Part shown: positions 26,143 to 31,456 of the stretch, piece after piece
Layout of the letters: each line of letters begins with the position of its first letter
How positions within the stretch are numbered: position 1 is the stretch's first letter
Assembly (NCBI GenBank): GCA_027621915.1
Contig: JAQCAD010000001.1
Span: 62,001-126,000 of the forward strand
Length of the DNA: 64,000 nt
Source of the DNA: Pseudomonadota bacterium
GTDB taxonomy: Bacteria; Pseudomonadota; Gammaproteobacteria; Steroidobacterales; Woeseiaceae
Direction of reading: 5' to 3'
Program-made: the position numbers and the translations under genes
The notes under the pieces: model-generated
Told to the model about the DNA's origin: nothing
Database searches by the model: none
The model's input: the letters and a program-made list of their open reading frames with translations, nothing else

Positions 26143-27390
26143 TTAGCCCGTTTCCCAGAGACGCCGAATGGGTACGGCGTAGAGCGAGTCCCCGAAACTC
26201 GCGCTGATTTCACCGTCGTACAATATCACTCCGACCGCGAACCGGTTTCCGGCAGCCGAGGCCAGTTTCCGCAGACCGCGAAAGTCGGAGCTGCTGACGC
26301 TGGCTGCGGCTTTCACTTCAACACCGGCGACCTGGCGTGTGCCTTTTTCCAGGACGAGGTCCACTTCGTACCCATCCTTGTCACGGAAGTGATGGAAACG
26401 GATGTCATCTTCGTGTCCACTGCTTTGCCGCCGCAATTCCTGATAGACGAACGTTTCGAGGAATTGTCCCAACAGTTCTCGATCTGCCGCCAGATCCTGG
26501 GCATTGACGCCAAGCAGCGCTGCTGCCAACCCGGTATCACCAATATGCAGCTTGGGCGTCTTCACCAGACGGCTTAATCGATTGGTATGCCACGGGGGCA
26601 ATTCATCAACCAGAAACACTTTTTCAAGCAGCGTGACATAGTCACGGATCGTCGGACGGCTGATCTGGAACGGTCCCGCCAATTCTGAAATATTGAGCAA
26701 CCGCGAAGTTTGTCCGCCAACTAGTGTCAGCAGCCTGGACAATACATCCAGCGAGGCAATCCGGGCAAGGTCCCTGACGTCACGTTGCACGATGGCCTCA
26801 ACGTAATCGCGGTACCAGGCGGCTCTTCGGCGAGGTGTGTTTCGTGCCAACGCCGCCGGGTAACCTCCGGCGACAATTCGCTGCGGTAGTTGTTGTTGAA
26901 GTCGCTCGTACTTTCTAATCTTGAAATTGCCGCTAAACAGGGCATCGAGAAACGCCGATTTTTTCTTCTCAATCTCGCGTTGAGCGAATGGAAACAGGCG
27001 AATGATCTCCATGCGCCCCGCGAGCGAATCCGCAAGTTTCGGCACGAGCAATACGTTCGCCGAACCAGTCAGCAGAAAGCGCCCCGGTGAACGATCACTA
27101 TCGATCACGGACTTGAGCGCCGTGAAAAGGGCCGGGACCCGTTGAACTTCGTCGAGGATCGCCCGGTCCGGCAGGTCTCCGACAAACCCCATCGGGTCAT
27201 CCTCGGCGGCCCCACGGAGCACGTCATCGTCGAGGTTGAAATAGCGGTAGCCACGCTTTTTGCCGACGATTTGGGCCAACGTCGTCTTGCCGGACTGACG
27301 CGGGCCGTGTATCAGCACGGCGGGACTGTCGTCGAGTGCTTCGACGAGCCGCGGTTCGACTAAGCGGGGGATGATTTTGCCGGATGCCAT
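26143..27390 (-). CDS. AAA_14/DUF4143 ATP-binding protein
   Basis: 415 residues of the widespread bacterial family with an N-terminal P-loop ATPase (Walker A HGPRQSGKTT, 28-37; Walker B RAILDEVQ), a sensor LLTGSANVLL, an HTH-like segment (LAGPFQISRPTIRDYVTLL) and a C-terminal DUF4143 restriction-endonuclease-like domain (DGYEVDLVLEKG, VEVKAA). The D...E-x-K pattern of a nuclease fold is visible. The family is scattered by horizontal transfer and its function is unproven; toxin/antitoxin-like or defence roles have been suggested. The upstream region carries repeats at 27403-27451. Confidence 0.88.
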   Translation of the reverse strand: MASGKIIPRLVEPRLVEALDDSPAVLIHGPRQSGKTTLAQIVGKKRGYRYFNLDDDVLRGAAEDDPMGFVGDLPDRAILDEVQRVPALFTALKSVIDSDRSPGRFLLTGSANVLLVPKLADSLAGRMEIIRLFPFAQREIEKKKSAFLDALFSGNFKIRKYERLQQQLPQRIVAGGYPAALARNTPRRRAAWYRDYVEAIVQRDVRDLARIASLDVLSRLLTLVGGQTSRLLNISELAGPFQISRPTIRDYVTLLEKVFLVDELPPWHTNRLSRLVKTPKLHIGDTGLAAALLGVNAQDLAADRELLGQFLETFVYQELRRQSSGHEDDIRFHHFRDKDGYEVDLVLEKGTRQVAGVEVKAAASVSSSDFRGLRKLASAAGNRFAVGVILYDGEISASFGDSLYAVPIRRLWETG

Positions 27391-29408: not shown

Positions 29409-30824
29409 ATGACTTTTCTACTCGGCATTACGCCATCACCGATTCTTTCTGCGCTCCTTTGGATCGTGCTCGTTGTCACGGCACTCTATTTCGCACGACC
29501 AACGGCACATCAATTCATTCTTGCCATTGGCGTGGCTTCGCAACGGATGTTTCGCACCGGATCTCAATCAGTCGCAAACGCCGAGCGGGGTCTTGCGGCG
29601 CGAAACCGCGAGGTATTGCTCGCGGCTGGTCGCGAAGCGAAAGAACGAATTGTAGAACGCGAGTTTGACCGCATTAATGAGACGGTCCGTAAGGACCTGG
29701 GAAATTTCTCTGTATTGCATCGAAACCTGAGTGAGTCGATCAATCGCATCGAGAATGACCACAGTGCCGCCGTTGACGTTCCACCCGATCCGCCAGGTTG
29801 GGTCGCTGCAGTGCAGGCAGTTGCGGCGATGGACTCGAAAGACAGCCGCGTCGGCGTGGGCAATGTGCTTGCCGACATTCACAAGTCGCTGGTCAAAGCA
29901 CACAAAGAGGCGATGGTTGCGTACCACGAGGCCAGCGGCAAGCGTCACACACTTCTGAGAAAAATGCGGCCGGACTGGCGCGAGATCCAGCAGACTCTCG
30001 GCAAAGTCGGAAAGAACGTGGATAGCTTGCTTGGCCGCTCAGTCACCATCGATCGCCACATGGCAGAGTACGAGGACATCGTCAAAGGCGAAGACCGGGC
30101 CGTGTCGATCCTGTCATCGTCATCGCTCGTATTCTTCTTTGTATCCGCACTGGTCATGGTGGTCGCAATAGGCGGTGCGACGATCAACTTCTCACTGATT
30201 GCACGACCGATGGCCGAAATGGTTGGTGGCACCAGTATGGTTGGCAACTTTCAGACGGCAGATATCGCCGCTCTCGTCATCATCCTGGTCGAGATATCGA
30301 TGGGTCTGTTTCTCATGGAGTCGTTGCGAATAACTCGCTTGTTTCCAGTTATCGGTGCATTGCCGGACAAGATGCGCGTTCGCATGATCTGGATCACGTT
30401 CACCATCCTATTCCTGCTGGCCAGCGTAGAGGCTGGGCTCGCCTACATGCGTGAAGTGTTGTTGCATGATGAACTTGCGACCAGTGCGCTTCTGCGAGGT
30501 GATATCGGCGCGGTCTCGACCAGCGAGTACATGTGGATTACGACCGCCGCCCAAATGGGTATGGGCTTTATCCTGCCTTTCGCGCTGACATTCGTCGCGA
30601 TACCACTGGAGACGTTCGTTCACTCATTAAGAACAGTGGTTGGATTGATCGCTATCGGCATCCTGCGATTTGTATCGCTTGTCTTTCGTCTGACCGGCAG
30701 CGGGCTTCGCAATTTCAGTGTCCTGTTAACCCATCTTTATGACTTGCCGCTGTTCATACCCCTGTGGTGGGCGGCGCGAGATCGTAACGACGCAAGTTCT
30801 GATCTAACGGAGGTGCGATCATGA
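29409..30824 (+). CDS. Multi-pass membrane protein with long coiled-coil region
   Basis: 471 residues, no family recognised. One membrane span at about 10-29 is followed by about 190 mainly helical, charged residues (about 45-230; heptad-like runs such as REAKERIVEREFDRINETV and LHRNLSESINRIEND). Further spans lie near 236-258, 284-305, 327-347, 376-399 and 406-426. The stop overlaps the start of the VWA lipoprotein by ATGA, so the two are translationally coupled. A structural or mechanosensing membrane partner for the VWA protein is an inference from architecture only. Confidence 0.75.
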   Translation: MTFLLGITPSPILSALLWIVLVVTALYFARPTAHQFILAIGVASQRMFRTGSQSVANAERGLAARNREVLLAAGREAKERIVEREFDRINETVRKDLGNFSVLHRNLSESINRIENDHSAAVDVPPDPPGWVAAVQAVAAMDSKDSRVGVGNVLADIHKSLVKAHKEAMVAYHEASGKRHTLLRKMRPDWREIQQTLGKVGKNVDSLLGRSVTIDRHMAEYEDIVKGEDRAVSILSSSSLVFFFVSALVMVVAIGGATINFSLIARPMAEMVGGTSMVGNFQTADIAALVIILVEISMGLFLMESLRITRLFPVIGALPDKMRVRMIWITFTILFLLASVEAGLAYMREVLLHDELATSALLRGDIGAVSTSEYMWITTAAQMGMGFILPFALTFVAIPLETFVHSLRTVVGLIAIGILRFVSLVFRLTGSGLRNFSVLLTHLYDLPLFIPLWWAARDRNDASSDLTEVRS

Positions 30825-31456
30825 AATCACTGACACTCGCATTTTTTAGCCTGATCCTTACCAGTTGCGCGCCGCCGCAATCGAGCAGTGCTGGCGTGTA
30901 CATGCTGGTGGATACGTCGGGTACTTACCGTGAAGAGATTCAGAAGGCACAGCAGATCATTCGCTATACCTTGTCGCGACTGGATGCGGCGGACACTTTC
31001 GCGGTGGCTCGTGTCGATACGGGCAGTTTCAGTGAAAAGGACATCGTAGCGAAAATGACCTTTGAAGATCGCCCAAGCACGGTCAACCGACAGAAGCGGC
31101 TTTTTGCCGAGCAGGTGGAGGCCTTTGTGAATGAAGCGCAGTCATCAGCGTACACCGACATTACGGGAGGGTTGCTGCAGGCCGTTGAGTACCTGAATGA
31201 GAAAGAACCTGGTGTCAAAACGGTATTGATTTTTTCAGACCTGAAAGAAGACCTGCAGGACGGCTACATCCGGGACATCGAATTTGATCTGGAAGGCTTC
31301 GACGTCATCGCACTGAACGTTACCAAACTTCGTTCGGACAATGTCGATCCACGCGAGTACCTGACGCGACTGGCGGAATGGCAGACGAAGGTCGAAAAAT
31401 CGGGTGGTCGCTGGCGTGTGATCAACGATCTGGATGGTCTGGAAGGCTTGCTTTGA
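30821..31456 (+). CDS. VWA-domain lipoprotein
   Basis: 211 residues. The lipobox LTSC (Cys16) predicts a lipid anchor. A von Willebrand A domain follows with the MIDAS motif DTSGT (31-35), a second element YTDITGG and the third FSDLKED, so metal binding seems intact. VWA lipoproteins usually mediate metal-dependent protein contacts in the periplasm. It is encoded with, and overlaps, the coiled-coil membrane protein, and the two are presumably partners. No chaperone ATPase (MoxR type) or protease is adjacent, unlike common VWA operons. Confidence 0.8.
   Translation: MKSLTLAFFSLILTSCAPPQSSSAGVYMLVDTSGTYREEIQKAQQIIRYTLSRLDAADTFAVARVDTGSFSEKDIVAKMTFEDRPSTVNRQKRLFAEQVEAFVNEAQSSAYTDITGGLLQAVEYLNEKEPGVKTVLIFSDLKEDLQDGYIRDIEFDLEGFDVIALNVTKLRSDNVDPREYLTRLAEWQTKVEKSGGRWRVINDLDGLEGLL

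Follow-up and report, generated by a model that had tools for sequence, protein, structure and literature searches.

The P1–P2 locus

Two genes, here named P1 and P2, lie on the plus strand of the window, the whole stretch of 64,000 nucleotides of DNA that was analysed. The first-pass annotation had described an ATGA overlap between them, and both open reading frames (ORFs) and the overlap were present as described:

29409..30824, plus strand: P1, encoding a 471-aa membrane protein with an N-terminal span, a long charged helical hairpin and about five spans; no named family
30821..31456, plus strand: P2, encoding a predicted 211-aa lipoprotein with a VWA domain
30821..30824, plus strand: ATGA stop/start overlap of P1 and P2, with a GGAGG-like ribosome site just 5'

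The flanking genes on either side (aldo/keto reductase-like, esterase-like, DNA glycosylase and amidohydrolase) were on the minus strand, and P1 and P2 thus form a two-gene island. An ORF at 26143–27390 of the window, also on the minus strand, presumably resembles an archaeal-type DUF4143/AAA ATPase. Both genes appeared to be under purifying selection, with dN/dS values of 0.04 (P1) and 0.062 (P2) in a single comparison, with L038, at a dS of 1.4–1.7, which is near saturation.

The pair was said by the annotation to fit no known operon type. Window P1 reached no curated Pfam cut-off (best Tsi6, 14.9 bits against 26.9). NCBIfam and PADLOC gave no match to it, and the best PHROGs match had an E value of 0.18. 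When 28 P1 members were compared with the families, the matches were scattered and weak, the best being DUF7341 at 8.6e-6 in 4 of the 28. Foldseek, queried with a weak P1 model, returned 191 matches at E ≤ 10, of which none reached E ≤ 0.001. The comparison of the P1 sequence with the PDB gave nothing below E 0.08, and no credible match. P1 is without a name in every library searched, and no named system for the pair emerged from the Pfam, NCBIfam, PADLOC and PHROGs searches, in agreement with the annotation.

Structural comparison matched P1 with coiled coils (Smc5/6 arms, SH3BP5 and Tc toxin stalks), the highest Z score being 10.0. These matches were set aside because their high rmsd and 3–11% identity are uninformative for helical models; the comparison excludes no family.

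The N-terminal part of P1 was divided as follows:

29439..29495, plus strand: first membrane span of P1, residues 11–29, by hydropathy
29496..30116, plus strand: charged helical arm of P1, residues 30–236, a predicted hairpin (30–120 / 150–226), predicted cytoplasmic

A charged helical region of roughly 190 residues had been noted between the first two spans. It was found to be about 207 residues long (34–240), with 31 K/R and 28 D/E. In the predicted model it formed two long helices (30–120 and 150–226) joined by a connector (121–149). The confidence of this model was only moderate (mean pLDDT 69.8, pTM 0.46) and that of the membrane bundle weaker still. Later hydrophobic peaks were near residues 241–259, 285–303, 326–344, 386–404 and 410–428. 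In one relative (G013), P1 was broken at profile position 232, where the arm meets the membrane part, into two ORFs.

Charged residues were counted for the positive-inside rule. The family means were 5.0 K/R and 2.0 D/E in the loop 304–325 (after span 3), and 2.0 K/R and 5.1 D/E in the loop 346–376 (after span 4); the N-terminus had 0 K/R. These counts favour a cytoplasmic rather than a periplasmic location of the coiled arm. The annotation's reading of the pair as a two-component envelope sensor or scaffold is still a conjecture, and the predicted location argues against the arm serving as a periplasmic scaffold.

The following features were located in P2:

30866..30868, plus strand: lipobox Cys16, invariant in 52 sequences
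30911..30925, plus strand: MIDAS motif D31-T-S-G-T35, with D31 and S33 invariant and T35 at least 90% conserved in the 52 sequences
31154..31156, plus strand: MIDAS T112, invariant in the 52 sequences
31238..31240, plus strand: MIDAS D140, invariant in the 52 sequences

The predicted model of P2 (pLDDT 84.4) had a VWA fold, with Z scores of 14.8–16.1 to VWA chains among the best 50 matches. By sequence, window P2 matched VWA_2 at 21.5 bits, below the Pfam cut-off of 27, and 22 of 27 P2 members matched VWA_2 at E ≤ 0.1; comparison with the PDB gave no credible match. Judged by sequence and model, P2 is a VWA-fold protein with the MIDAS residues DxSxT...T...D, a predicted metal site. It is also predicted, from its signal peptide with lipobox Cys, to be a lipoprotein. 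The intact MIDAS on a lipid anchor described earlier was thus borne out by the conserved MIDAS and the invariant Cys16.

Pairing of P1 and P2 across genomes

A scan of bacterial genomes identified 134 stretches with P1 relatives, of which 80 (54–89% identity) were kept. They came from Woeseiaceae, other Gammaproteobacteria and a few Alphaproteobacteria. P2 was directly downstream of P1 on the same strand in 77 of the 80, with 0–162 bases between the matches. Two of the other three were cut at the contig end (L037 and L081), and the third (L069) had 268 bases left. The four-base stop/start overlap was present in 60 of 77 scored loci, the window's own genome included. The remaining junctions had a one-base overlap (eight), an 11-base overlap (one) or no overlap (eight). 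The start codons in this scoring were chosen by script, and L002 was not scored.

The commonest other neighbour family occurred in 11 of 82 sequences, so that no third gene recurred. An ORF family on the opposite strand, which lay over P2 in all 14 sequences that held it, was left out of this count. As the annotation had stated, no MoxR or Bat partner gene was near the pair.

Two samples of genomes were searched. In the phylum sample (299 genomes), P1 matched in 19 and P2 in 18. All 17 genomes with a strong P2 match also had P1; in the remaining one (G256) the P2 match was weak, to part of an 850-residue frame. In the window's class (369 genomes), P2 was found in 47 genomes as 50 copies, of which 49 were directly behind P1. 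The survey of homologues that the annotation had proposed thus revealed a conserved pair, the opposite of homologues always occurring apart. The sole P2 without an adjoining P1 was in G533 (L182:6283–6933), where P1 was not detected even at E 10.

P1 gave 59 matches in 52 genomes of this class. Ten had no P2 behind them: six were full-length and distant, one (G596:C212) was cut by the contig end, and three (G628, G695:C23 and G508:C12) were weak and confined to short stretches of the coiled arm. The last three were set aside as coiled-coil matches.

Counted by genome, 46 had both genes, one P2 only, five P1 only and 317 neither (Fisher p 9e-52, a value that ignores relatedness and leaves one weak arm match uncounted). 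The spread was patchy, with P1 in 13 of the 97 genomes of the window's order. P2 was present in 16 of 78 genomes of a further class, that of G275. These results supported P1 and P2 as a dedicated pair.

Three P2 copies in open frames of 1181, 931 and 358 aa were considered as possible fusions with a longer protein. The first two (L188 and L177) were taken to be GC-rich open frames and not fusions, because P1 overlies them in another frame. The third (L191) was rejected, with P1 and P2 being separate ORFs.

Some genomes departed from a single intact pair. In G005 (L150:7473–9607), rated 100% complete, P1 and P2 were fragmented across several frames, by decay or poor sequence. G136 had short extra P2-like pieces at C104:23693–23833 (which holds stops) and C51:2–130, in addition to an intact pair. 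Two full pairs, usually from different branches, were present in each of G405, G489, G678 and G260.

The MIDAS site and the polar residues in the membrane

Eight P1 relatives had no MIDAS partner. Seven of them (L094, L097 and L225–L229) had no detectable P2. In the eighth (L183), P2 was present as a decayed VWA domain (probability 98.9), with DAEGV in place of DxSxT. In L227 and L225 an ORF overlapped the P1 stop by four bases; that of L227, considered as a replacement for P2, had no detectable similarity to it.

These eight were compared with 53 paired rows, the total of 61 being obtained from 140 rows by thinning at 72% identity. Truncation of the P2 region led to the exclusion of L026 and L069 from the tree. 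The positions considered were in or near the predicted spans of P1:

30186..30188, plus strand: P1 N260, polar, span 2; 53/53 MIDAS-paired rows versus 3/8 without a MIDAS partner
30291..30293, plus strand: P1 E295, acidic, span 3; 53/53 versus 1/8
30429..30431, plus strand: P1 E341, acidic, span 4; 53/53 versus 2/8
30450..30455, plus strand: P1 R348-E349, predicted periplasmic end of span 4; residue 349 is D/E in 53/53 paired rows
30552..30554, plus strand: P1 Q382, polar, span 5; 52/53 versus 2/8

At the 35 positions that were at least 95% conserved in the paired rows, the partnerless eight retained 178 of 280 cells. For N260, E295, E341 and Q382 together, 8 of 32 were retained. Among the remaining conserved charged sites (R30, R179, E304, R323, R348, E401 and D445), 48 of 56 cells were retained. 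The losses were uneven, with L094 losing only E295, and L226 losing E341 and Q382 and keeping N260 and E295.

This count was post hoc, the sites having been noticed first and then counted on largely the same rows. The eight partnerless rows require three changes on a quick 61-row tree with long branches, and with about three independent losses a sign test is unable to reach 0.05. We read this post hoc pattern, of about three losses, as suggesting that the MIDAS and the polar site in the membrane are one working unit.

Three of the paired rows (L175, L178 and L179) had a variant MIDAS with Asp at the last position. In two of them (L175:6637–11476 and L178:6934–11776), genes for a response regulator and a kinase-like HATPase_c protein lay in divergent orientation to the pair. 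In L176 a sensor kinase gene was also present, 3' of the pair.

Taking together the pairing, the linked losses and the VWA fold with its conserved MIDAS, we tentatively propose that P1 and P2 form an inner-membrane complex whose periplasmic face is capped by the MIDAS lipoprotein, with a probability somewhat short of even. In this complex, P1 would be anchored by its first span, and its helical hairpin would reach about 130 Å (90 residues × 1.5 Å) into the cytoplasm. The chain would then re-enter the membrane and form a bundle of some five spans, with N260, E295, E341 and Q382 towards the periplasmic side. P2, held by its lipid and a linker of about ten residues, would lie flat on the periplasmic face. 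Its MIDAS metal would bind P1, most likely at an acidic residue such as E349, a candidate ligand. By docking in a metal-dependent manner, P2 would hold the polar site or gate it, perhaps with ion passage, and the cytoplasmic arm may relay the change to a putative partner inside the cell.

The closest working parallel to this proposed complex is alpha2delta on the calcium channels of animals, which binds the channel subunit through its MIDAS and for which a channel Asp is reported to matter (PMC6527056). Alpha2delta and CACHD1 are likewise described as membrane-tethered extracellular VWA-MIDAS proteins with a multi-span membrane partner (PMC6527056). The fold comparison of P2 returned alpha2delta chains at ranks 8, 15, 16 and 18. 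On the other hand, P2 has only a VWA domain and lacks the cache domains of alpha2delta and CACHD1, and no relation of P1 to ion channels was detected by PDB sequence or Foldseek searches, the latter with a weak P1 model.

A bacterial parallel is the McaA–McaB pair of magnetotactic bacteria, likewise membrane proteins encoded by two genes and including a periplasmic VWA domain, in which the McaA MIDAS is reported to be required for the location and function of McaA (PMC9512821). It differs in that McaA itself contains a span and a cytoplasmic tail, and a single span is predicted for McaB.

The residue following the lipid Cys bears on where P2 resides. Among 122 sequences this +2 residue was Ser in 58, Gly in 24, Ala in 12, Asp in nine and Thr in eight, so that Ser, Gly, Ala and Thr together made up 102. 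In E. coli, lipoproteins with such +2 residues are sorted to the outer membrane. By this rule most P2 proteins would be placed there, out of reach of P1 for a ten-residue linker, which argues against the cap.

The main rival to the capped complex is therefore a trans-envelope pair, in which an outer-membrane P2, as adhesin or envelope sensor, would signal to the inner-membrane P1 via the wall or a third protein. Besides the +2 residue, VWA lipoproteins and MIDAS adhesins known elsewhere (PMC11003981) are consistent with this arrangement, as are the response-regulator and HATPase_c genes that adjoin the variant pair in two genomes. However, the P2 linker from lipid Cys to domain is short (median 10 residues, range 8–20), P1 shows no sign of a large periplasmic domain, and no third gene is conserved. 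We consider a trans-envelope pair rather unlikely.

VWA proteins often take part in the maturation or positioning of other complexes, and P1–P2 might act on another envelope complex in the manner of MoxR–VWA pairs. The fold matches of P2 included the VWA domains of NorQ–NorD (ranks 26 and 27) and BatB (ranks 29 and 32), the VWA proteins of the MoxR and BatA/BatB systems also having a MIDAS. However, within the neighbourhood of P1–P2 there was no MoxR ATPase or Bat gene, no other ATPase and no conserved client gene. The MoxR partners of VWA proteins work in the cytoplasm, whereas P2 is a predicted lipoprotein. A role as assembly factor thus appeared improbable, and the capped complex was retained as the preferred reading.

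The distant branch in type III-B CRISPR loci

Four P1–P2 pairs (G275, G180, G260 and G245) formed a distant branch, starred in the tree, with 35–54% identity to the P1 of G275. Two of the four were located among the cas genes of type III-B loci. In G275 (L107, 263–7516), the order was Cmr6, a transmembrane (TM) protein with CARF/SAVED, a Csx1-like CARF protein, P1, P2, Cas1 and Cas2. The TM protein had a CARF/SAVED match at 2.8e-25 and a Pfam SAVED match at 2.6e-7. In G260 (L108, 35–3738), it was Cmr6, a TM protein with CARF (3.9e-35), Csx3, P1 and P2. The intergenic gaps in the latter were at most 45 bases. Both genomes were drafts, with contamination of 9 (G275) and 3 (G260) per cent.

The G180 pair adjoined an Obg-type GTPase, and the G245 pair was flanked on one side by a gene for SAICAR synthetase and on the other by further genes unrelated to CRISPR. 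The tree of the branch fits a CRISPR linkage gained twice or lost twice alike. No CRISPR array was found on L107 (stretch 1–2300) or L108, and cas10, if present, would be beyond the contig ends.

P1 and P2 themselves had no CARF or SAVED match, and most copies of the pair, the window's included, had no CRISPR link. In these two respects they differ from Cam1, Cap1 and Csx23, which are likewise membrane proteins encoded with type III CRISPR (Cam1 and Csx23: PMC11229360). The likeness lies in the distant branch, where the pair directly adjoins a TM+CARF gene.

These loci raise the possibility that the whole family is a phage-defence module that damages or senses membranes, with type III CRISPR as one trigger among others. 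The two copies beside a membrane CARF/SAVED-like gene would fit this, as would the patchy spread in the 369 genomes (P1 match in 52, P2 in 47). However, the window genome (G000, 95% complete) had neither Cas10 palm2 (PF22335) nor Cas1 (PF01867), and PADLOC gave no match for the P1 and P2 of the window. Searches of plasmid records for P1, P2 and distant P1, and of phage records for P1, gave no match, and two viral-contig scans gave no confirmed match. Typical copies in one class were among housekeeping genes (CTP synthase and heptose/KDO synthesis, named by eye), and the other two distant-branch copies were away from CRISPR genes. A general role in defence is quite unlikely on this evidence.

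A narrower proposal extends the capped complex. P1–P2 could be a bacterial two-subunit gate that conducts ions or protons, with a lipid-anchored MIDAS cap and a cytoplasmic lever arm, and the CRISPR branch could be a membrane effector recruited by type III-B systems and driven by CARF/SAVED. During phage infection, cyclic-nucleotide signalling would open or close the gate via the adjoining membrane CARF/SAVED protein. We regard this proposal as speculative and very unlikely to hold in full.

The linked loss of the MIDAS and polar residues and the CRISPR-sited branch point rather towards a complex in the membrane for which the VWA protein serves as a cap or gate. The near-constant pairing together with this branch makes P1–P2 look like a real, undescribed membrane machine. 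The finding is an undescribed family pair, rather than a proven new mechanism. The VWA domain is already known, and pairs of a VWA protein with a membrane protein exist.

In the literature searched, survey supplements aside, no description of the P1–P2 pair was found. A 2019 survey of type III accessory genes reportedly contained 39 new families. VWA is unmentioned in the main text of a later survey of type III effectors (PMC11229360). The FLSHclust survey reported vWA systems at CRISPR loci with transmembrane and other proteins, which were compared with P1–P2 by description only, and the CRISPR lead may therefore be partly in print (PMC10910872).

P1 is widespread and unnamed in the libraries searched and its partner is nearly invariant, and the two can therefore be studied as a single testable unit. 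A MIDAS lipoprotein that capped a polar site within the membrane would give bacteria a counterpart of the cap that alpha2delta forms on calcium channels in animals. Should the CRISPR-linked branch prove to be an effector, a standing envelope module would have been taken over by type III immunity, and comparison of the free and CRISPR-linked copies would reveal its function. If the gate reading is true, an extracytoplasmic lipoprotein would belong to the working part of a CRISPR effector.
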